Notes under the pieces: generated by a model
Databases searched by the model: none
What the model saw: the letters and a program-made list of their open reading frames with translations, nothing else
Told to the model about the DNA's origin: nothing
Translations under genes and position numbers: made by a program
Shown: positions 30,186-46,039 of the stretch, piece after piece
How positions within the stretch are numbered: the first letter of the stretch is position 1
Layout of the letters: each line of letters starts with the position of its first letter
NCBI RefSeq assembly: GCF_014466985.1
Contig: NZ_AP022826.1
Span: forward strand, 992,001 to 1,056,000
From: Nitrosophilus labii
GTDB lineage: Bacteria > Campylobacterota > Campylobacteria > Campylobacterales > Nitratiruptoraceae
Length of the DNA stretch: 64,000 nucleotides
Direction: 5' to 3'

Positions 30186-30208
30186 AGATACTCCATAATT
30201 TCGGAATT

Positions 30209-30386
30209 GAGACCTCTGAAAAATTACAGATTGAACGAAGACTTTGAAATTTTAGCTTGAAAATTTTATGTTAGCTAAAAGGCTAAAAAAGTGCGCTTGT
30301 TTAGCACTTTTTAATAAAATTCTCAGCGTTAGTTTACTAAAAATTTCAACTCGCCTGAGTGAAATTTTGTAATTTTTCAGAGCATT
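30209..30386 (+). repeat. 178-bp hairpin repeat, copy A
   Basis: Non-coding element bounded by CTCTGAAAAATTACA and its reverse complement, with an outer shared border GAGAC at one end and GCATT at the other. It can fold over nearly its whole length into one imperfect hairpin, with a central stem AAAAAGTGC/GCACTTTTT. It matches the reverse complement of 44794-44971 over its whole length with scattered differences. It has no ORF. It is probably a MITE-like or structured-RNA repeat. Confidence 0.85.
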
Positions 30387-30387
30387 C

Positions 30388-30507
30388 AATTAGAAATTAG
30401 GAATTTGGTAAAGTAGTTGAGTGGTTGAGTAGTTCTTATTTCGTTACTACTCAACTGTTTTAACTTTTTTAACTACTTAACTAATTCCAATTTCCTAATT
30501 TCTAATT
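30388..30507. repeat. Nested heptad-type palindrome between hairpin repeat and trpD
   Basis: Three nested inverted repeats: 30388-30408 with 30487-30507 (one mismatch or so), 30411-30418 with 30471-30478 (perfect), and 30424-30433 with 30446-30455 (perfect, 10 bp). Units such as AATTAGA/AATTAGG/AATTTGG repeat about every 7-8 bases. It can act as a strong RNA hairpin downstream of trpD. Confidence 0.75.
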
Positions 30508-30537
30508 CCCTTCTATCCTCTTACCACCTTACCAGCC

Positions 30538-35214: not shown

Positions 35215-35247
35215 AATTTCTCCTAATCTAACTTTTTTTAATATTGC

Positions 35248-38200
35248 TTATTTTCTCTCTATCAACTCATTTGCTAAAGCTTCAGCTTGTTTTAAAACTG
35301 TTTGAGTTGCAAGCTTTTGCATATCTGGAGGATATCCAAACTGTCTTAGTGTTCTTTTTATAATTACTTTTAGTTTTGCTCTTGCACTCTCTCTTATAGC
35401 CCAATCAATTGATGTATTTTCTCTTACCTTTTGAAATAAGACAGTTGCAAGCTCTTTTAATTTCTCTTTTCCCATAAGCTCTCTTGCACTTTCATTATCC
35501 GCAACAGCGCAGTAGAAGGCATACTCATATTCAGATAATCCAAGTTCATCTGGTTCTTTATCGCTTGCTTTAATCTCTTTGGCAAGTTTTATAAGCTCTT
35601 CTATGATTTCAGCTGCTGTTAGCAGTTTATTATTATACTTTCTTACAAGCTCTTCTAAAGATTCTTGCAAAGATTTGCTTTTTACTATATTCGTTTTGAT
35701 TCTTCCTTTTATCTCATCATTTATAAGTTTTTTTAAAGTCTCAATAGCTAAATTTTTATGTTTCATTGCTTTAATTTCATCTAAAAATTCATCAGAGAGT
35801 ATAGAGATATCTGGTTTTTTTAGCCCCGCTGCATCAAATATATCTATAACACCATTAGAGACTATTGCTTTATCGACTATCTGTTTTATCGCAGTTTCAT
35901 AATTTTGTGCGCTATTTTCGCTTCTTTCAAATTTTATAAGTCTTGATTTTACAGCTTGAAAAAAAGCTACTTCTTCTTTTATCTTTAAAGCCTTTGGATG
36001 AGGGATAGCAAGGGCATAGGCTCTTGAGAGTGCAGTGACCGCATCGATATATCTTTTTTTACCCTGTTCAAGTCCAAGTATAAAATCCTCCGCTTCAAGG
36101 ATGATGTTTAGTTTTTCTTGTGTGTCAGCGCTAAAATATCTTTTATAATCAAATCCGTAAAAGATATCTTTTACAACCTCAAACTTTTCAAGCATAATCT
36201 TAACTGCTTCTTCTTGGAGCTTTGCAGGCTCTCCTTTTCCACCACTTTCTGCATAGAAGTTTAAAGCCTCTTTCAAATCTGCAGCAATTCCTATATAATC
36301 AACAATAAGCCCACCCGTTTTATCTTTATAAACTCTATTTACCCTTGCAATTGCCTGCATAAGCGTATGCCCTTTCATAGGCTTATCGATATACATTGTA
36401 TGAAGAGATGGCACATCAAAACCTGTAAGCCACATATCAACAACTATTACAAGTTTTAGTTCATCATTCGGGTCCTTAAATCTATCTGCTAATGTTCTTC
36501 TTTGCTCTTTTGTTAAATGAAATTTTGTTAATTCTATCTCATCTGAAGAAGAGGTTGTCATAACAACCTTTATTTTTCCTTTTTTTAGTTCATCACTATG
36601 CCAATCTGGGCGTAAAGATACAATCTCATTATAAAGATTTATGGCTATCTTTCTTGACATTGCAACTATCATAGCCTTACCATCCATCACTTCAAGCCGT
36701 TTTTCAAAATGATCTACTATATCTTTTGCTATCTCTTTTATTCTTGGTTTTGTGCCTATTAAAGCTTCCAATTTTGCCCATTTTGTTTTTGCTTTTTCTA
36801 CTTCAGAGAGTCCTTTTTCATCAAGCTCTTTTTCATACTCTTTTATTAACCTTTTTCCTTCTTCTGTTAAGTTGACTTTTACAAGTCTGCTCTCATAAAA
36901 AATAGGCACAGTCGCCCCATCTTCTACTGCATTTGCTATATCGTAAATATCGATATAATTTCCAAAAACAGCGGGTGTATTTCTGTCTGTCTTTTCTACA
37001 GGTGTTCCAGTAAAAGCGATATATGTAGCATTTGGAAGTGCGTCTCTTAAATATTTTGCAAAGCCATATTTTATATCCCCTGATTTTTTATCCACTTTTG
37101 CTTGAAATCCATACTGAGTTCGGTGAGCCTCATCAACAATTACGATGATATTATCTCTTAGTGACAAAGTTTCATAAATATTTCCATCTTCTGGCCAAAA
37201 TTTATGTATAGTTGTAAATACTACTCCTCCAGCATCTACTTTTAAAAGCTCTTTTAAATGTTCCCTACTGTTTGCTTGAACAGGTTCTTGTCTCAAAATC
37301 TGCGAAGCAGAGGCAAAAGTATCAAAAAGCTGATCATCAAGGTCGTTTCTATCTGTGATAACTACTATCGTTGGATTATCTATCGTTTGGATAATTTTAC
37401 CTGCATAAAAAAGCATAGATATAGATTTGCCGGAACCTTGCGTATGCCACACAACTCCAGCTTTTTTATCTCCTTCTAGCTGATCTTTTACATCAGGCAG
37501 TCCATAACTTGCAGGCGGCTCTTTTACGATAAAGCTTGATCTGTTTTGACCAATCGCCCTTAGTGTTGATTTGATAGCTTTGTTTACGGCGTAGTATTGA
37601 TGATAAGCTGCAATTTTTTTTGTAGTTTGTATAGTGGTTTGCCCGTTTTTGTCTTCTTTTTTTGATTTATCAAACAAGATAAAAAATCTTATATAATCGA
37701 TAAGTGTTGGTTTATCTAAAAGCCCTTTTATTAGTATCTCAAGCTGACTCACTAGATGGGAAGCCTCTTTTTTGCCATCAGCAGATTTCCAAGCCATAAA
37801 TCTATCATATCCAGCCGATAAACTTCCTATCTTTGCTTCAAGGCCGTCTGATATGATTAATATTTCGTTATAGGTAAAAAGAGATGGAACTGTTTGTTTA
37901 TATGTTTGAAGTTGGTTGTATGCCGATTTTAGGCTCGCATTTTCATCTGTTGGATTTTTAAGTTCCATAACAATAAGAGGTAATCCGTTTATGAAAATAA
38001 CGATGTCTGGTCTTTTGTTGACACTATTTTCAATAACTGTAAATTGATTGACTACCAAAAAGTCGTTATTTTGGGGATTTTTAAAATCAATAAGCCATAC
38101 AATATCTCCTCTATCAACTCCATCTTTTGTGTATGTTACTTTTATACCTTGAGTTAGCATTTTATGAAAAATCTCATTGTTCGCTAACAAATTAGGCGTA

Positions 38201-38517
38201 TGGATTTGAATTAGCTGTTTTATAGCATCATCTATTGAGCTTTGTGTCAAGTGAGGGTTTATCCTTTTTATAGCACTTTTTAATCTAACAAATAAAATCA
38301 CATCTTCAAATGAGTTTCTAAGTGGATTTTCACCATCAGGGGTGATATCAGCACCAAAAAGATAATCGTAACCTTGTAATTTTAAAAGCTCTATTGCAAA
38401 GTTTTCTATATTTGCTTCAGAAACTGAATGATGAAGTCTGAATTCTGAAGGATGAAATTTTGTTGATTTCTGAAGGTTGAAGTCTGAATTATGAAAATTA
38501 TTGTTTTCTTTTTTCAT
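35248..38517 (-). CDS. hsdR: HsdR, type I restriction enzyme R subunit
   Basis: 1089 aa DNA translocase and nuclease. The N-terminal nuclease region has RPDIVIFINGLPLIVMELK (PD-(D/E)XK pattern); the motor has GSGKSISML, VDEAHRTQYG and TGTPVEK, plus helicase motif VI region ARVNRVYKDK. Family similarity begins near residue 33 (SEANIENFAIELLKLQG); residues 6-32 are translated from heptad-repeat DNA that flanks the four-helix-bundle gene. The start at 38517 overlaps that gene by 20 bases. With hsdM and hsdS it makes a complete type I system. Confidence 0.95.
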   Translation of the reverse strand: MKKENNNFHNSDFNLQKSTKFHPSEFRLHHSVSEANIENFAIELLKLQGYDYLFGADITPDGENPLRNSFEDVILFVRLKSAIKRINPHLTQSSIDDAIKQLIQIHTPNLLANNEIFHKMLTQGIKVTYTKDGVDRGDIVWLIDFKNPQNNDFLVVNQFTVIENSVNKRPDIVIFINGLPLIVMELKNPTDENASLKSAYNQLQTYKQTVPSLFTYNEILIISDGLEAKIGSLSAGYDRFMAWKSADGKKEASHLVSQLEILIKGLLDKPTLIDYIRFFILFDKSKKEDKNGQTTIQTTKKIAAYHQYYAVNKAIKSTLRAIGQNRSSFIVKEPPASYGLPDVKDQLEGDKKAGVVWHTQGSGKSISMLFYAGKIIQTIDNPTIVVITDRNDLDDQLFDTFASASQILRQEPVQANSREHLKELLKVDAGGVVFTTIHKFWPEDGNIYETLSLRDNIIVIVDEAHRTQYGFQAKVDKKSGDIKYGFAKYLRDALPNATYIAFTGTPVEKTDRNTPAVFGNYIDIYDIANAVEDGATVPIFYESRLVKVNLTEEGKRLIKEYEKELDEKGLSEVEKAKTKWAKLEALIGTKPRIKEIAKDIVDHFEKRLEVMDGKAMIVAMSRKIAINLYNEIVSLRPDWHSDELKKGKIKVVMTTSSSDEIELTKFHLTKEQRRTLADRFKDPNDELKLVIVVDMWLTGFDVPSLHTMYIDKPMKGHTLMQAIARVNRVYKDKTGGLIVDYIGIAADLKEALNFYAESGGKGEPAKLQEEAVKIMLEKFEVVKDIFYGFDYKRYFSADTQEKLNIILEAEDFILGLEQGKKRYIDAVTALSRAYALAIPHPKALKIKEEVAFFQAVKSRLIKFERSENSAQNYETAIKQIVDKAIVSNGVIDIFDAAGLKKPDISILSDEFLDEIKAMKHKNLAIETLKKLINDEIKGRIKTNIVKSKSLQESLEELVRKYNNKLLTAAEIIEELIKLAKEIKASDKEPDELGLSEYEYAFYCAVADNESARELMGKEKLKELATVLFQKVRENTSIDWAIRESARAKLKVIIKRTLRQFGYPPDMQKLATQTVLKQAEALANELIERK
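38418..38499. repeat. Heptad array, left arm of the cassette around the four-helix-bundle gene
   Basis: On the - strand the DNA reads as spaced TTCANNN heptads (TTCATAA, TTCAGAC, TTCAACC, TTCAGAA, TTCATCC and others). It ends at ATGAAAATT on the + strand (38491-38499). The arm is the imperfect reverse complement of 38870-38932 and is translated as the start of HsdR. It carries the last bases of the four-helix-bundle stop codon at its tip. Confidence 0.75.
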
Positions 38518-38878
38518 TTTTTAGACCTTTTTTTGTATTAACAATAATTTTTGTAATCACAGATATTATTTCATTAGTTTCTTTTATAAGATATTCCGTA
38601 TCTTCAGTATGTAAAATTTTAGAAGCTCTCAATAATCTAAGCCAATATAGGCTCTCTCTGGCTTCTTTTTGTGCAATACTATATTTATGGATAAAATCAG
38701 CTTTACTTTCTCCTGATTGAGCTTCTTGAATATTTGCCCCTATACTTGTTGCAGACCTTAAATACTGCTTTCCAATAATCAAACCCGCACTCTTTCTTTG
38801 TAATTGCAATTTATTATAAAGTTCAATTGCTTTTAAAGCATATTGAAAAGTTCTATCTTTTATATCATAAATTTTCAC
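38498..38878 (-). CDS. Four-helix-bundle protein (S23/TIGR02436 family)
   Basis: 126 aa, all-helical, with the family patterns YALKAIELYNKLQL, GKQYLRSATSIGANIQEAQSG and KADFIHKYSIAQKEARES-YWLRLL. Members occur in the intervening sequence of 23S rRNA of some Leptospira, and the fold is shared with the Avd protein of diversity-generating retroelements; most are of unknown function. It starts with a GTG that lies in a heptad array and stops in the opposite array, so the ORF fills the space between inverted arms exactly. It separates hsdS from hsdR. I see no reverse transcriptase or rRNA nearby. Confidence 0.88.
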   Translation of the reverse strand: MKIYDIKDRTFQYALKAIELYNKLQLQRKSAGLIIGKQYLRSATSIGANIQEAQSGESKADFIHKYSIAQKEARESLYWLRLLRASKILHTEDTEYLIKETNEIISVITKIIVNTKKGLKNEKRKQ

Positions 38879-38932
38879 TCTTCACCCTTCATACTTCATA
38901 CTTCACCCTTCATCCTTCATACTTCATCCTTA
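38870..38932. repeat. Heptad array, right arm of the cassette around the four-helix-bundle gene
   Basis: Nine 7-base units on the + strand: AATTTTC, ACTCTTC, ACCCTTC, ATACTTC twice, ACCCTTC, ATCCTTC, ATACTTC, ATCCTTA. The hsdS stop codon (38910-38912) and the GTG start of the four-helix-bundle gene (38876-38878) lie inside it. It is the imperfect inverted partner of 38418-38499. Confidence 0.85.
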
Positions 38933-40070
38933 TTTTCCCGCTCATTAGTTTTGGTAGGAGTGTATCTCGTAATCGTTCTAATGTGCGGATTTGTTTGGAA
39001 TTATTTAATAACTTTTTAAAAATGGGATTAACTTGAATTTGGAAATTTGCAAGGCTGTTTTTGTCTGGAACAGTAATCACAAACTCTTTTAAAATACTGG
39101 TTTTTAAGTTTGTAAAAATACTTCCATTACCTTGCATTAAAAGTTGGGGTCTAATATATAAAAACAGCAAATATAGGAATTCATTTGAAAAATATGATTT
39201 TGGAAAATACAACCATCCATCATGGATACAAGAATTCATTTGTAAAATTTTAGGAATCCCAGGAGTTGCACTATTAGACAATATAAGTGAGTCGCTTTTT
39301 AATAATACAGTTTTATTTAGTCCTTCTTCTTTAATATGTTCTTTTATGTCAAAAATAAAAGGTGAGTTTAGATTAGTAATATCTGATATTTTAAGCCATT
39401 TTAATCCGTTATTTGATAAATAATTTTGAATAGGTCTTGGTGAACTGCCTCTTTTTATTGTTACAAGTTCTCCAAGAGGTTTTTCCTCCCAATCCTCTTT
39501 TGCATCTTCAATAAACCACTTTCTAAAAAGAGTTTGCGCCATTTCTTCAAGAGTTTTATTTTGGCGGTGAAGCAGGTCTATTTTATCATCAAAACTTGAC
39601 AACACCCCAGCAATGGCTTTTTGTTCGTTTAAATCTTCTGGAATAAGAACTTCAAGGCTTTCTAAATCTCTTTTAGAGATAGAACCAAAAACAGTTCCGC
39701 CTTCTGAATTTAAAATTTCTTTTTTTGTATAGTGTAATAAATAATATAGAAATAAATTTTCATCATTTTTTGATTTTAATGCTGCCAATCCTCTTCCAAT
39801 ACAAATAGTTTGATTTGCAATATTGATATCACCAACAGGTGCTCTTACACTAAATAATATATCTCCTTTATCAGCTATTTTTATAGGATTTGAACAATAT
39901 ATATCTATTTTTGGATATCTATAACCAAAAGTTCTATTACCTTGGAGAAATGGTAAGCCTTTGCCTTCTGTATTATAAAATTCAGATTTTGGAGATTGTC
40001 CCATTTTAATTTCTGCTACTTCTCCCAACTTAACCTTTTTCCATCTTTTAGGCATTTTCTCACCCATCAA
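38910..40070 (-). CDS. hsdS: HsdS, type I restriction specificity subunit
   Basis: 386 aa with two target-recognition domains (about 1-150 and 185-350), each followed by a conserved helical spacer (EQKAIAGVLSSFDDKIDLLHRQNKTLEEMAQ after the first, LERLRDTLLPKLMSGKI after the second; only short parts quoted here as markers). It sets the DNA sequence recognised by the HsdRMS complex. Its stop codon falls in the heptad array, so the last few residues (KYEG) are repeat-derived. It overlaps the AlbA-domain gene by 4 bases. Confidence 0.94.
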   Translation of the reverse strand: MMGEKMPKRWKKVKLGEVAEIKMGQSPKSEFYNTEGKGLPFLQGNRTFGYRYPKIDIYCSNPIKIADKGDILFSVRAPVGDINIANQTICIGRGLAALKSKNDENLFLYYLLHYTKKEILNSEGGTVFGSISKRDLESLEVLIPEDLNEQKAIAGVLSSFDDKIDLLHRQNKTLEEMAQTLFRKWFIEDAKEDWEEKPLGELVTIKRGSSPRPIQNYLSNNGLKWLKISDITNLNSPFIFDIKEHIKEEGLNKTVLLKSDSLILSNSATPGIPKILQMNSCIHDGWLYFPKSYFSNEFLYLLFLYIRPQLLMQGNGSIFTNLKTSILKEFVITVPDKNSLANFQIQVNPIFKKLLNNSKQIRTLERLRDTLLPKLMSGKIRMKYEG

Positions 40071-41509
40071 AACTCCTCCGTTTCACCCTTCAAAACATAA
40101 TGTGTACTTCTTCCTTTCCCTTTTCTTTCTATTAATTTTTTATGAACTAATGAACTTAATATCTCATGTGCTTTAGTTTTATGAATATCGAGAATTTCTG
40201 TAACTTTTTTTCTATTAATTGTTTTTTTCTCCAAAAGATAGATTAAAATTTCTTTTTCTTCTTTGGTTAATCGTCCGTAATCGTCCGTAATCGTCCGTAA
40301 TTGATCATAATCGGTCGCAGATGTTGATATTTGGATTTTATTTTTTTGTTCAAAATTTATTTTTTTAAATGTTACTCTAAAAGAAATTCCTGGCTCACTC
40401 CACTCCATTTTTATTTCAGGATACTTTTTCAATTCATTAGCAATTAGTCTTAAACCATTTCCCCACTGCTCAATAATTCCTAGTTTTTTAAATACAACCG
40501 CTAACACTTTATTTCTTATATCAGATTGACCTGCTTCCATATTATCAAAATCAATAGTAGGCATAAGCTTATCTGGACTTGTGATTTCAATTTTGTCATC
40601 AAAAATAGCAATCTTTATATCTTTTCCTTTTAAAGAATAATCTCTATGAATTACGGCATTTCTTATAACTTCACGGATAGCAATTATTGGATATTCCCAT
40701 CTATCTTTTCTATAAACTCCTTCATAAGTTGAACCTTGAGAAATATGCCTTAAAACAAATTTATATGCTTCTTCTGGTTGCAAACTTAAAGGCTCGTCAA
40801 TTGTTTTTTGGTCAATAAAATTACCCGGAATTGTTCCTTTGAACCTTGCACATTCTATTTTTGTATAAGGAAAAAGGGTGTTTTTTATTTCATCATTTGA
40901 AAGTAAAATTAAAGCATTTGTAGGAAACTCTTTGTTTTGGTCTGTAATTATCAAATTTAATTTTTTTAAGATTGTTTTTGTTAGTTTTTCCCCAGTAATT
41001 TCTTCAAATTGTTGTGAGAATTTAGAAAAATCTAAATCTTTAATATCTTGTGTATAGATTGGTAAAGAATCAAAAGAAATTCCCTCTTTTTGCCTTTCTA
41101 ATTCCTCTATTATCTCATTATTGGCAAGACGATTTATTGAACCAACTCTAATATATGTTCCTTTCTCTTTTCCTTTGCTTTTTATAAAGTATGGCGGGTT
41201 ATTTCCTTTATAGATTTTTACTACTATTACAATTTTACCTTCAATATTCAAAGAAAAAATGTCAGGTAATATCAACGGATAACAGCTATCGTGAATAATA
41301 CTACTTATAGTTTCTTCCATTTTTAGCAAATCTTCCTCTGGAATACCGATAATCTCTCTTGGATTATCTTTTATTCCTATATAGATTTCACCGCCAGCAT
41401 CATTAGCAAAGGCTACAACAGTTTTACATAAATCATTTTTACTGGGTAAATATTCTTTAAATTCAAGTTTCCTATTTTCAGGATATTTCAAAATTTCTTT
41501 TAAATTCAT
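40067..41509 (-). CDS. AlbA_2-domain ATP-binding protein with C-terminal winged helix
   Basis: 480 aa. The N-terminal AlbA_2/Schlafen-type DNA-binding domain (NRKLEFKEYLP, VVAFANDAGGEIYIGI) is followed by a GHKL-like ATPase region (REVIRNAVIHRDYS, WGNGLRLI) and a C-terminal winged helix of about 70 residues. Such proteins are usually regulators or accessory factors in mobile and defence regions. The coding sequence for residues about 395-412 contains a 10-bp tandem repeat, which could cause frame switching before the winged helix. It starts 17 bases after the RhuM/Fic gene and overlaps hsdS. Confidence 0.85.
   Translation of the reverse strand: MNLKEILKYPENRKLEFKEYLPSKNDLCKTVVAFANDAGGEIYIGIKDNPREIIGIPEEDLLKMEETISSIIHDSCYPLILPDIFSLNIEGKIVIVVKIYKGNNPPYFIKSKGKEKGTYIRVGSINRLANNEIIEELERQKEGISFDSLPIYTQDIKDLDFSKFSQQFEEITGEKLTKTILKKLNLIITDQNKEFPTNALILLSNDEIKNTLFPYTKIECARFKGTIPGNFIDQKTIDEPLSLQPEEAYKFVLRHISQGSTYEGVYRKDRWEYPIIAIREVIRNAVIHRDYSLKGKDIKIAIFDDKIEITSPDKLMPTIDFDNMEAGQSDIRNKVLAVVFKKLGIIEQWGNGLRLIANELKKYPEIKMEWSEPGISFRVTFKKINFEQKNKIQISTSATDYDQLRTITDDYGRLTKEEKEILIYLLEKKTINRKKVTEILDIHKTKAHEILSSLVHKKLIERKGKGRSTHYVLKGETEEF
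40271..40320. repeat. 10-bp tandem repeat inside the AlbA-domain gene
   Basis: TCGTCCGTAA occurs three times without change (40271-40300), followed by two degenerate units (TTGATCATAA, TCGGTCGCAG). The unit length is not a multiple of three, so gain or loss of one copy would shift the reading frame between the ATPase part and the C-terminal winged helix. Confidence 0.9.
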
Positions 41510-41526
41510 TCTTTATCTCTCATACT

Positions 41527-42516
41527 TCATCCTTCAAAAGAAATAAAATTCATAATGAGTTTTACTAACTGCTCTTTTTGTTCTGGTGGGCTTGCTGCTA
41601 CAAGATAGCATAGGGCCGTTAGCGTATTGCTGTTAAATTTATTAAAAAGTTCTTCTTGAGATAGATTTTCATATAAAAAAAGCAAAAACAAAAAAGCACC
41701 AATTCTTTTATTTCCGTCAACGAATGGATGATTTTTTATGATTAAATAGAGCAGATTTGCTGCCTTTTCTTCAAAGGAAGGATAGAGTTCTTCGCCTCCA
41801 AAACTTTGATAAATCGTATTCAACGCACTCTCAAAAAGTCCTCTATCTCGCTCAAGCCCAAAAATTTCTGAAGCTTCGCCTCTTTGCAAAAGATACTCTT
41901 TTAACTCTTTAATTGCTTCTTTTGCTTCTTCATAGCTTATTATTTTTCTCTCTTTTCGAGTTATGATCGCTTTGATTTTTCCAGTGTCATACTCTTCAAT
42001 CCATCTCCAAACCAAAGCATATTTTTCTATAATTTCAAGCAAGCCTTTTGCTTCCTTTGCGCTTAAGGAAGGAGTATTGATATTTTCTTTAATAAACTTT
42101 ATTGCACTTTCAAGCTCTTTTAATTTTTCTTGCGTAAGCTTTTTTTCATTGACGGCATAACCTTTTACAAGGTAGTTTTTTAGGACATTCGTCGCCCAGA
42201 TACGAAATTGTGTCGCTTTTTTGGAATTAACACGATAGCCAACAGCTATGATTACATCAAGGTTATAGTAAGTAATTTTTCTTTTTACTTCTCTTTTACC
42301 TTCAATTTGAACTGTTTCCATTTTGGAAACAGTTGAGTTTGGCTCTAATTCTTTTGAATCAAAAATATTTTTAATATGCTTTGATATAGCTGCTTTTTGA
42401 ACATCAAAAAGATATGCAATTTGATTGAGATTTAACCAAATTGTCTCTTCTTTCAATTGAACCTCAATTTTTTTATCCCTATCTTCAAAAATAACTAGTT
42501 GATTTTCCATTTTCAT
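41527..42516 (-). CDS. RhuM-family protein with C-terminal Fic domain
   Basis: 329 aa. The N-terminal RhuM-type domain has a helix-turn-helix-like pattern (WLNLNQIAYLFDVQKAAISKHI is split: LNQIAYLF and AAISKHI) and the family segment YYNLDVIIAVGYRVNS. The C-terminal Fic domain (about 200-320) has HPFVDGNKRIGA, the catalytic His and phosphate-binding residues. Fic enzymes usually transfer AMP to proteins. No inhibitory (S/T)XXXE(G/N) helix was evident by eye. It overlaps hsdM by 4 bases, so it is translated with the methylase. Confidence 0.88.
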   Translation of the reverse strand: MKMENQLVIFEDRDKKIEVQLKEETIWLNLNQIAYLFDVQKAAISKHIKNIFDSKELEPNSTVSKMETVQIEGKREVKRKITYYNLDVIIAVGYRVNSKKATQFRIWATNVLKNYLVKGYAVNEKKLTQEKLKELESAIKFIKENINTPSLSAKEAKGLLEIIEKYALVWRWIEEYDTGKIKAIITRKERKIISYEEAKEAIKELKEYLLQRGEASEIFGLERDRGLFESALNTIYQSFGGEELYPSFEEKAANLLYLIIKNHPFVDGNKRIGAFLFLLFLYENLSQEELFNKFNSNTLTALCYLVAASPPEQKEQLVKLIMNFISFEG

Positions 42517-44045
42517 TTTTTACCCTTAATATCCACCTTTCCCAAACTCTCAAGTATCAACTTATTCAATCTCTCTTCTTCAACTAACTGCTCTAAAAAT
42601 TCCTGTTTTAGTTTTGTAAACCTCTCTTCAAAATCAAAATCATCCTCTTCTTCAGGAAGCCCAACATATCTGCCAGGAGTTAGCATATAATCAAGCTCTC
42701 TTACTTTCTCAATGCTAACAGATTTACAAAATCCTTTAATATCCTCATAATTAACATCAACTCTAAGCCATCTATGGTAAGTATCAGCTATTTTTTTGAT
42801 GTCATTTTCCGTTAAAACTCTTTGTCTTCTATTGATAAGCTCTCCTAAATCTCTTGTATCAATGAAGAGAATCTCTTTTTTTCTTGTAGTTTTGTTTTTT
42901 CTTAAAAACCATAAAGATGCCGGTATTTGAGTATTTAAGAAAAGTTTTGCAGGTAGATTAACGATGCAATCTACTATATCATCTTCGATCATATTTTTTC
43001 TAATCTCATATTCAGCGCTTTGTTTTGTAGTTAGTGCGCCTTTGGCCAAAACAAATCCTGCTTTTCCGTGAGGCGCAAGATGAAAGATAAAGTGCTGAAT
43101 CCATGCGTAGTTTGCATTGCCAACAGGTGGGATTCCATATTTCCACCTAGCATCTTTTCTTAAAAGCTCGCCACTCCAATCGCTATCGTTAAATGGTGGA
43201 TTTGCGATTACAAAATCTGCCTTGAGGTCTTTGTGAGCATCATTTAAAAATGAGCCTTCGGGATTCCATTTAACTTGAGTTGAGTCAATACCTCTAATTG
43301 CAAGGTTCATTTTACACAGTCGCCAAGTTGTTTGGTTGCTCTCTTGTCCATATATTGAAATATCATTAATCTTTCCTTGATGCTCTTGCACAAACTTTTC
43401 AGACTGTACAAACATTCCTCCACTTCCACAACAAGGATCAAAAACTCTTCCCTTATAAGGCTCAAGCATTTCAACTAGTAACTCAACAACGCTTCTTGGA
43501 GTATAGAACTGCCCTCCTTTTTTACCTTCTGCAAGTGCAAACTCTCCTAAAAAGTATTCAAAAACATGCCCTAAAATATCTGAGCTTTTCTCTTTTGCAT
43601 CATCAAAAGCGATATTGCTAAAAAGATCAATCAACCCTCCAAGAGTTATAGGATCAATATTTCCCCTTGCATACACTTTTGGCAATACCCCTTTTAAAGA
43701 TGGATTCTCTTTTTCTATTAACTCCATCGCATTATCTATGATTTTCCCAATCTCTACATCTTTAGCATTTGCTTTTAGATACTCCCATCTAGCCTTTGGT
43801 GGAACATAAAATACATTTTCTGCTATGTATTCGTCTCTATCTTCTGGATCAGCTCCTAAGTATTCACCTTCACCTTTTTTTAACTTTTCATAAAGTTCTT
43901 CAAATGCTTCTGAAATGTATCTTAAAAAAATCAATCCAAGAACCACATGTTTATACTCTGCAGCATCGATATTTTTTCTTAGTTTATCTGCTGCTTTCCA
44001 TAGCCCTTGCTCAAAAGTTTCTATAGTTTGTTTTTTCTTTGCCAT
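42513..44045 (-). CDS. hsdM: HsdM, type I restriction DNA methyltransferase subunit
   Basis: 510 aa adenine methyltransferase. The N-terminal helical domain is followed by the SAM site VFDPCCGSGGMF, catalytic motif IANPPFND, and the YTPRSVVELLVEM segment. Together with HsdS it modifies host DNA. It starts 11 bases after radC and overlaps the RhuM/Fic gene. Full length and motifs suggest it is active. Confidence 0.96.
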   Translation of the reverse strand: MAKKKQTIETFEQGLWKAADKLRKNIDAAEYKHVVLGLIFLRYISEAFEELYEKLKKGEGEYLGADPEDRDEYIAENVFYVPPKARWEYLKANAKDVEIGKIIDNAMELIEKENPSLKGVLPKVYARGNIDPITLGGLIDLFSNIAFDDAKEKSSDILGHVFEYFLGEFALAEGKKGGQFYTPRSVVELLVEMLEPYKGRVFDPCCGSGGMFVQSEKFVQEHQGKINDISIYGQESNQTTWRLCKMNLAIRGIDSTQVKWNPEGSFLNDAHKDLKADFVIANPPFNDSDWSGELLRKDARWKYGIPPVGNANYAWIQHFIFHLAPHGKAGFVLAKGALTTKQSAEYEIRKNMIEDDIVDCIVNLPAKLFLNTQIPASLWFLRKNKTTRKKEILFIDTRDLGELINRRQRVLTENDIKKIADTYHRWLRVDVNYEDIKGFCKSVSIEKVRELDYMLTPGRYVGLPEEEDDFDFEERFTKLKQEFLEQLVEEERLNKLILESLGKVDIKGKK

Positions 44046-44056
44046 AATTTTCCTTT

Positions 44057-44716
44057 TTATAAAAACCCTTCTTCTTTCAAACTTATAAATCCATCTTTGC
44101 TAAAGATTATGTGATCTAGTAGTTCAATACCAAGTATCTTTCCGCTTTGTTGAAGTTTTTGTGTAACAGATAAGTCTTCACTGCTAGGAGTTAAATTATT
44201 TGAAGGATGATTGTGAGCTACGATAATGCTTGCGCATCTATTTTCAATCGCTGGAGCAAAAACTTCTCTTGGATGAACTAAACTTTGGTTTAAAGTGCCA
44301 ATAGTTACAACTCTTTTTTGGCAAATTCTATTTGCTCCATCAAGATAAATGGACAAAAAATACTCTTGCTTTTTATCATAATACTCTTTTAACTCCTCAT
44401 ATACATCTTTAGCTGAAGTAATTATTTTATATTGTTTTAGAAGATACCTTTTTGATAGCTCTATCGCGCTAACTATTTGAGAAGCTTTTGCTATGCCAAG
44501 TCCGTGGATTTGAAGAAGTTTTTCTAAATCAATTGAGTCAAAATCATCTCTAAAAAGTTTTACAATTTCTCGTGAGAGTTTTATAACATCTTTTCCTTTT
44601 ACCCCACTACCAAGTAAGATTGCGACTAACTCATAATCTTTTAGAGCTCCTACTCCTTTTTCTAAAAGTTTTTCCCTTGGTTTTTCAAACTTTTTAAGCT
44701 CATTGATTTTTTTCAT
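44057..44716 (-). CDS. radC: RadC-family JAB/MPN-domain protein
   Basis: 219 aa with the N-terminal helix-hairpin-helix region (REKLLEKGVGAL, LLQIHGLGIAKA) and a JAMM zinc site (HNHPSNNLTPSSED). The family name is historical; a repair role is doubtful, and members are common in mobile and defence islands. It is the first gene of the hsd operon, behind a good promoter at 44739-44767. Confidence 0.92.
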   Translation of the reverse strand: MKKINELKKFEKPREKLLEKGVGALKDYELVAILLGSGVKGKDVIKLSREIVKLFRDDFDSIDLEKLLQIHGLGIAKASQIVSAIELSKRYLLKQYKIITSAKDVYEELKEYYDKKQEYFLSIYLDGANRICQKRVVTIGTLNQSLVHPREVFAPAIENRCASIIVAHNHPSNNLTPSSEDLSVTQKLQQSGKILGIELLDHIIFSKDGFISLKEEGFL

Positions 44717-44738
44717 CTTGTATCCAAAATTACATTAT

Positions 44739-44767
44739 TTTATACCTTTGCATAAGGTTTTAATCAA
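44739..44767 (-). promoter_or_regulatory. Sigma70-type promoter of the radC-hsd operon
   Basis: On the - strand, TTGATT (-35, 44762-44767) and TATAAA (-10, 44739-44744) are separated by exactly 17 bases, and lie about 25-50 bases before the radC ATG. The hairpin repeat ends just upstream of it at 44794. Confidence 0.65.
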
Positions 44768-44793
44768 CTTCTATTACATTTTTTTTAAATAAA

Positions 44794-44971
44794 TGCTCTG
44801 AAAAATTACAAAATTTTACTCAGGAGAGTTGAAATTTTTAGTAAAACTAACGCTTGTAAATTTTATTAAAAAGCGCTAAACAAGCGCGCTTTTTTAGCCT
44901 TTTGGCAAACATAAAATTTACAAGCTATAATTTCAAATCCTTCGTTCAATTTGTAATTTTTCAGAGGTCTC
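44794..44971 (-). repeat. 178-bp hairpin repeat, copy B
   Basis: Reverse-complement copy of the element at 30209-30386. Its central stem is AAAAAGCGC/GCGCTTTTT, where copy A has AAAAAGTGC/GCACTTTTT, so a T-A pair is replaced by C-G. The second stem GCTTGTAAATTTTAT/ATAAAATTTACAAGC is perfect here and imperfect in copy A. It fills much of the 384-base gap between radC and hemC, which contains no gene. Confidence 0.85.
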
Positions 44972-45041
44972 AAATCTTTAAAAGGATTTTTCTTAGTGAT
45001 TGTTCCATCTGGCATTTGTTCTCAATCAAAACCCATTTCTG

Positions 45042-45098
45042 ATTCCTAATTCCCAATTCCTAATTTACTAATCTCCAATGTCTAATGTCCAATTTCCA
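45042..45098. repeat. Heptad array directly after hemC
   Basis: Eight consecutive 7-base (one 8-base) units: ATTCCTA, ATTCCCA, ATTCCTA, ATTTACTA, ATCTCCA, ATGTCTA, ATGTCCA, ATTTCCA. It ends 2 bases before the hemC stop codon. Unlike the other heptad loci, no matching inverted arm is seen next to it. Confidence 0.8.
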
Positions 45099-45100
45099 AA

Positions 45101-46039
45101 CTATTTAAACGCCATCTCTTCGGCTCTTTTCAAAAGCTCTTTTGCTCCGGCTTCTATCATAGACTCTGCAAGTGTTTTTCCTAACTCTTTATAGTTCTCT
45201 TTCGTTCCAAAAATTTTATCTTTTAAAAGCTCTTTGCCGTTTGGTAGGCCTATAACAGCTCTTGCCACTATATCTCCATCATCCATTAGGGTAGCTTTAA
45301 CGCCTATAGGCACCTGACAACCCCCTTGCAATACATCTACAAAATCTCTCTCTACGGTCGTCTCTATCTGGCTCTTTTCATCATTAAGAGTCTTTACAAT
45401 CTCTAAAATTTTCTCATCCTCAACACACTCTATTCCAAGAGCCGCCTGTCCCATTGCAGGTATCATCCTCTCCTCTTCAATAGGAGTAAAGTAGTTCACC
45501 TCTTCAGTCAATCCTAATCTTTTCAGCCCTGCCGAAGCCAAAATAATAGCGTCAAACTCGCCATCTTTTAACTTCTTAATTCTAGTGTCCACATTTCCTC
45601 TTAAATCTTTTATCTTTAGATCGGGCCTTAGATGAAGAAGCTGCATTTTTCTTCTAAGGCTTGTAGTTCCCACAACAGCTTCTGCTGGAAGATCTTCAAT
45701 AGATGAATATTTTTGACTCAAAAGTGCATCTCTTGGATCCTCTCTTTTTGTAATAGCGCCTAAAACAAGACCATTTGGAAGTTCTGTTGGAACATCTTTT
45801 AGACTGTGAACCGCCAAATGTGCATCACCTCTTAACATCGCATCTTCAAGCTCTTTTGTAAAAAGTCCTTTACCTCCTATCAAAGCAAGAGGCGTATCTA
45901 AGATCTTATCTCCTTTAGTTTTGAAAATCTGCAGTTCAACTCTCATTTGGGGGAATCTCTTTTCTAAAATAGATTTAATATAGTTTGACTGCCAAAGTGC
46001 AAGTTTACTTCCCCTAGTTGCTATAACTAATCTTTCCAT
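45101..46039 (-). CDS. hemC: HemC, porphobilinogen deaminase
   Basis: Assembles hydroxymethylbilane from four porphobilinogens in haem synthesis. 312 aa with VIATRGSKLALWQS at the N-terminus, HSLKDVPTELP, and the cofactor Cys in LQGGCQVPIG. It begins 9 bases after the DsbC-like gene. In Campylobacter the next gene is ubiD, as I recall; here repeats and the restriction island intervene. Confidence 0.97.
   Translation of the reverse strand: MERLVIATRGSKLALWQSNYIKSILEKRFPQMRVELQIFKTKGDKILDTPLALIGGKGLFTKELEDAMLRGDAHLAVHSLKDVPTELPNGLVLGAITKREDPRDALLSQKYSSIEDLPAEAVVGTTSLRRKMQLLHLRPDLKIKDLRGNVDTRIKKLKDGEFDAIILASAGLKRLGLTEEVNYFTPIEEERMIPAMGQAALGIECVEDEKILEIVKTLNDEKSQIETTVERDFVDVLQGGCQVPIGVKATLMDDGDIVARAVIGLPNGKELLKDKIFGTKENYKELGKTLAESMIEAGAKELLKRAEEMAFK

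Follow-up and report, generated by a model that had tools for sequence, protein, structure and literature searches.

A MITE-like repeat of Nitrosophilus labii with a covarying hairpin core and apparently exchanged transposon ends

Within the window, the 64,000-nucleotide stretch of the Nitrosophilus labii genome analysed here, two copies of a short repeat differ by a paired base change inside a common hairpin, and an earlier note had suggested either a non-autonomous, MITE-like element or a structured RNA family. This raises the question of what has moved such a sequence, and in which form, DNA or RNA, its fold has been kept. On sequence evidence we class the repeat among the MITEs, small mobile DNA elements without coding sequence, and the reading that we favour, with a probability of about 0.6, is that of an old MITE family which carries IS5-type ends in this genus and in which an inherited folding core acts as DNA while its ends have been exchanged.

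The two window copies and their family in the genome

The two copies (Table 1) lie in opposite orientation and align over their full length as the earlier note had claimed, with 165 of 181 aligned columns identical and two one-base gaps. Two of the boundaries first given had to be moved outwards, the right end of copy A by one base and the left end of copy B by three, and the others stand. The termini of both copies are CTCTGAAAAATTACA / TGTAATTTTTCAGAG to within one base, and each copy forms one branched hairpin, so that the shared ends and the single long hairpin are borne out. RNA folding gave z-scores of -4.8 for copy A and -8.7 for copy B, with none of 200 shuffles as good, and folding of the inner 136-137 nt with DNA parameters gave -6.9 and -6.0 on the two strands of copy B and -2.8 and -2.5 on those of copy A. 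The compensatory change between GTGC/GCAC and GCGC/GCGC is real in both central stems. Neither window copy contains an ORF of 80 aa or more, and the element has no match in Rfam, either at the gathering thresholds or at E<=1.

Table 1. Coordinates in the window of the two repeat copies, their flanking duplications and their central hairpins
Feature	Position	Strand	Remarks
Copy A	30209..30387	-	179 bp; strand is the orientation with the TTCACTC arm first
Target-site duplication AATT, left flank of copy A	30205..30208	.	
Target-site duplication AATT, right flank of copy A	30388..30391	.	
Central hairpin of copy A, AAAAAGTGC...GCACTTTTT	30286..30312	.	terminator-like on the - strand (consensus scan)
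Copy B	44791..44971	+	181 bp
Target-site duplication AAAT, left flank of copy B	44787..44790	.	single in the empty site of G002
Target-site duplication AAAT, right flank of copy B	44972..44975	.	
Central hairpin of copy B, AAAAAGCGC...GCGCTTTTTT	44868..44895	.	compensated T-A to C-G pair; terminator-like on both strands

Searches of the whole genome at the DNA level (2.09 Mb, two contigs) put the copy number at about 22. The 18 copies of regular size measure 179-200 bp, two longer ones of about 280-290 bp (L018, L021) carry a G+C-rich apical domain, and two shorter ones (L020, about 75-95 bp; L041, about 54 bp) lack the apical part and retain the outer hairpin; sizes span 54-290 bp and the ends are inverted. 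Because about 22 copies occur here and further ones in relatives, a single recent duplication combined with a sequencing error is ruled out as the origin of the pair. When genes were defined by simple ORF calling (minimum 100 aa), none of the ORFs was split by a copy; one copy overlaps the end of a gene and the remaining copies are intergenic. Seventeen of the 22 lie between tandem genes, and orientation with respect to genes is mixed (7 same, 10 opposite). One full copy is followed, about 15 bp downstream, by a decayed partial one (AATTTCAAATTGAACGAAGAC..., L002 1690-1730).

The neighbourhood of the window copies has features of its own. Both adjoin members of another intergenic repeat family, also A+T-rich (TTAGGAATTGGGAATTAG-like; window 30388-30510 and 45000-45110), which matches dozens of places in the congeneric genome G003; the stretch adjoining copy A is missing from G002, likewise of this genus, along with copy A. 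Copy B lies at the edge of a type I restriction-modification region (window about 35223-45060) with HsdR-, HsdS- and HsdM-like genes, others and a RadC-like gene. The orthologous locus of G003 lacks this region, as apparently do those of G001 and G004, and G002 has it only in part.

Insertion sites and an IS5-type partner

The 4-mers flanking the element match in 13 of 18 copies (AATT, TATT twice, AAAT), more often than in permuted pairings of flanks (p = 0.003; per base 0.00015). At the locus in G002 orthologous to that of copy B the element is absent and the sequence reads ...TTCTT-AAAT-CTTTAAAAGG..., and in N. labii it reads ...TTTTT-AAAT-element-AAAT-CTTTAAAAGG.... The orthologous G002 locus is also without copy A, but there the element is missing inside a larger difference.

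In its own genus the element ends in GA(A/G)NNCTCTGAAAAA, and a decayed insertion sequence of the same genome (G000:C1, about 1932432-1933608) matches it at both ends, AATT-GAATCCTCTGAAAAA...GAGGACTC-AATT or, in a longer reading, AATT-GAATCCTCTGAAAAACCC...TTTTTTAGAGGACTC-AATT. For a second decayed insertion sequence, at about 1186244, one matching end was found (AATT-GAACCCTCTGAA). The transposase fragments of these sequences match NCBIfam transpos_IS5_4 with E = 2e-32, which for fragments lies below the curated cut-off, and Pfam DDE_Tnp_1 above its cut-off. A non-autonomous, MITE-like element is thus upheld by matching transposase ends, target-site duplications (4-bp AATT, TATT or AAAT) and an empty site, while of the transposase that the earlier note had proposed to look for only two decayed IS5-type insertion sequences, and no intact gene, came to light. 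No intact cognate IS5-type transposase was found in the own genome or in 60 relatives; in the 60 related genomes a search with that transposase gave only two weak matches (31% identity, E about 1e-6 to 1e-5), which belong to other families. Current mobility is therefore only putative, and the transposase of the element appears to survive solely as broken copies in its own genome.

We propose that in this genus the DDE transposase of an IS5-family insertion sequence acted in trans on the element, which would have inserted at AATT-like sites and generated the 4-bp duplication, a view supported by the matching ends, the duplications and the empty site. The element resembles IS5-family insertion sequences (NCBIfam transpos_IS5_4) in that the decayed sequences have ends GA(A/G)NCCTCTGAAAAA and a 4-bp AATT duplication, but differs from them in having no transposase and in not being a simple internal-deletion derivative. 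It has only about the terminal 13-20 bp in common with the insertion sequence; the sequence inside the ends differs, for which reason derivation of the interior by internal deletion was rejected. REP/BIME elements, which go with RAYT transposases, are likewise short intergenic imperfect palindromes in many copies; here, by contrast, target-site duplications are present, and a Y1/RAYT transposase was rejected as the mover since none was found in G000, G002 and G003 of this genus. Two other pairs of DDE insertion sequences in the genome (L153/L155 and L157/L158) consist of copies about 99.9% identical and were probably active recently; no ends matching the element were seen in them.

One folding core with several kinds of end

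Of 397 genomes sampled from the class, at least 14 contain this architecture according to a covariance model (R1) built from 22 elements, the kind of search that the earlier note had proposed. They belong to families f1, f4 and f16, and their number is a lower bound since strict filters were applied and six candidates were scored per genome. A DNA search added a member in family f22 (G042), and the same architecture spans at least four Campylobacterota families. It combines one long hairpin and a pair of side hairpins with 2x2 mismatches that are conserved and, at the centre, an A5...T5 hairpin, the most conserved helix. The exact pattern of this central hairpin, searched for in the genomes of 84,980 species, among which records near the N. 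labii genome may be absent, occurs in 30 contigs, all of Campylobacterota by title (Campylobacterales MAGs, an Epsilonproteobacteria MAG, Nitratiruptor sp., a Nautiliaceae bacterium); L084 (G328, family f16) carries an element identical to that of the Nautiliaceae match L207. In G059 the terminal repeat occurs dozens of times, with many copies paired about 165 bp apart. A sequence-only control model (R2) found many of the distant elements, more weakly, including the Nautiliaceae forms and, weakly, those of G059, so that homology does not rest on structure alone. G024 (L104-L124), of the same genus as G059, harbours another small element, distinct from this one, which has ACTGACGTTACGC at its ends and duplications of 7-8 bp.

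The ends vary around this core. The CTCTGAAAAA end is found in three lineages (own genus, MAG S143_45 and MAG 356-284), ends of type ACTGACCTTACGC in G042 and G059, and (GG)YACTGACTAAAT ends in Nautiliaceae and some Nitratiruptor-group genomes. The end types of other lineages, ACTGACCTTACGC or GGYACTGACTAAAT, accompany 8-bp duplications: copies with CTGACC ends have perfect 8-bp duplications in 3 of 14 cases (TTAGGATA, TGAGTTTA, TTATATAA; permutation p = 5e-5), and one family f16 copy (L099/L134) has TTTTAATT at either side. At least two and probably three kinds of end have thus gone with one and the same folding core. Under our preferred reading the inherited unit would be the folding core, its Watson-Crick pairing kept across several Campylobacterota families, and covariation together with the comparison of ends shows that it was joined to at least one, probably two, transposon-end kinds beyond the IS5 type. 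No autonomous partner for the non-IS5 ends, which with 8-bp duplications are CTGACCTTACGC or GGYACTGACTAAAT, was found with PF01609, PF03400, PF12762 or PF01797. As movers of the forms with 8-bp duplications, IS1 (PF03400) and IS1595 (PF12762) were rejected, the former being absent from the ten genomes and the latter represented by a single fragment in one of the ten.

A bolder version, which we consider possible yet would not bet on, makes the folded DNA core itself a replicating parasite that is recognised or required as a hairpin or cruciform, has passed vertically or laterally across several Campylobacterota families and captures the ends of unrelated transposases. If true, the element would be a modular 'folding parasite' and not the decayed copy of any single insertion sequence.

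Covariation and the form in which the fold is kept

In an alignment (A3) of 90 distinct elements, pairing holds in 92.9% of cells, and two-sided compensatory change is seen at 48 of the 53 stem pairs. Compensated cells number 838, against 226 after shuffling of columns and no more than 158 with partners slid; these counts are biased upward because the alignment was fitted to the model structure. In a free MAFFT alignment of 22 elements two-sided changes were found in 31 of 61 pairs. The suspicion that folding has been maintained, raised from a single base pair, is thus confirmed by covariation throughout the stems. Uncompensated stem changes, which the earlier note had regarded as evidence to the contrary, do occur. 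Copies above 95% identity differ on one side of their stems only, as expected of recent unconstrained insertions, and two-sided differences arise with divergence. This fits decaying insertions with the fold kept in those lineages that are still moving.

RNA helices tolerate G-U pairs. In the element the G-U share of standard pairs is 1.7%, and G-T cells (71) do not outnumber A-C cells (99), which mirror them on the opposite strand; the consensus sequences of ten subfamilies contain no G-U among 457 pairs. A small control of 11 tRNAs from the same loci has 11 G-U and no A-C in 237 pairs (p = 6e-6 against the element). Lacking an excess of G-U over A-C, the constraint is strand-symmetric, which leaves DNA, template-switch copying or RNA function on both strands. 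The Watson-Crick-only covariation points to a structure kept as DNA (hairpin or cruciform, perhaps with template-switch correction) and not as one-strand RNA, although it would also be expected from template switching without selection or from a function of the RNA of both strands. A structured RNA, either a small RNA or an element embedded in mRNA, that spread by transposition under selection for RNA folding could account for the strong covariation, the stable RNA folds, the C(UUCG)G loops of some copies and the terminator-like central hairpin, but with G-U in no subfamily consensus, no preferred orientation relative to genes, no Rfam match and a strand-symmetric signal we think it improbable, and this half of the original proposal is not supported. 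A bidirectional transcription terminator or insulator would forbid G-U as well, the RNA of both strands having to fold. It agrees with the A5...T5 of the central helix, nearly invariant even among G+C-rich copies, and with a consensus terminator scan that was positive for copy B on either strand and for copy A on one. It accounts, however, for the central helix only, and the outer and side helices, which a terminator does not need, covary as strictly; we give it equally little credence.

A stronger competitor, if still an unlikely one, is a MITE of the ordinary kind in which polymerase template switching, and not selection, maintains the pairing by copying one arm of a quasipalindrome onto the other, which makes double changes. 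Template switching yields exactly Watson-Crick-only double changes; it has been reported to fix the pairing of existing stems (PMC8794818) and to act at E. coli quasipalindromes (PMC7202029). Acting alone, however, it would erase mismatches, and two 2x2 loops, TC/CT on the given strand and tandem GA/AG mismatches on the opposite one, persist across families and are fully paired in just 5 of 77 and 2 of 82 rows; nor do the copies above 95% identity show any double changes. For the function of the fold in an old MITE family with a DNA core, we infer that the molecule in which it counts is most likely DNA, which when single-stranded or supercoiled would form a snap-back hairpin or a cruciform. 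Such a structure would pair both ends and make the short element a good transposase substrate; copying from arm to arm by template switching may help to maintain complementarity, and the central hairpin probably terminates transcription both ways, which would render intergenic insertions tolerable.

MITEs are usually explained as shrunken insertion sequences of which little but the ends is conserved. In this family the ends are shorter-lived than the interior fold, which covaries as a functional RNA would, yet with a DNA-like Watson-Crick-only signature. It offers a natural data set on whether selection acts on DNA folding in small transposons, whether the folding is maintained by template switching and how such elements switch from one transposase to another, and the count of G-U against A-C on subfamily consensus sequences is a cheap test applicable to other structured repeats. 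Stable stem-loops are a familiar feature among bacterial MITEs (PMC2229807, PMC10969869). The element shares with Correia/NEMIS, RUP and ERIC the short, A+T-rich, non-coding, intergenic sequence, terminal inverted repeats, a target-site duplication, presumed mobilisation in trans and a long stem-loop (PMC2229807, PMC10969869); it departs from them in its long-lived interior, as opposed to ends, in covariation across families and in two to three end types. Phylogenetically conserved secondary-structure properties have been reported for the CIR repeats of Caulobacter and Brucella (PMC2229807), but these comprise two stem-loop arms with a linker and a GANTC site, in contrast to the one closed branched hairpin with transposon ends found here. 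Integron attC sites have little sequence conservation and are recognised by structure as folded single-stranded DNA (PMC2727003), whereas the present element is scattered in single copies between genes and has target-site duplications as well as ends of the DDE type. No description of this repeat family, and no precedent for a MITE-like element combining Watson-Crick-only interior covariation over several families with exchanged ends, was found in a literature search of incomplete coverage, mostly outside subscription papers.

The apical domain of the two longest N. labii copies also occurs in Nitratiruptor-group genomes and in one family f16 genome, and has a constant AACTGCTT loop atop a covarying stem. 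In this 250-290-bp form (L018, L021, L063, L071, L087) the loop, which may be a recognition site, is kept, and the stem is wholly different between genera.
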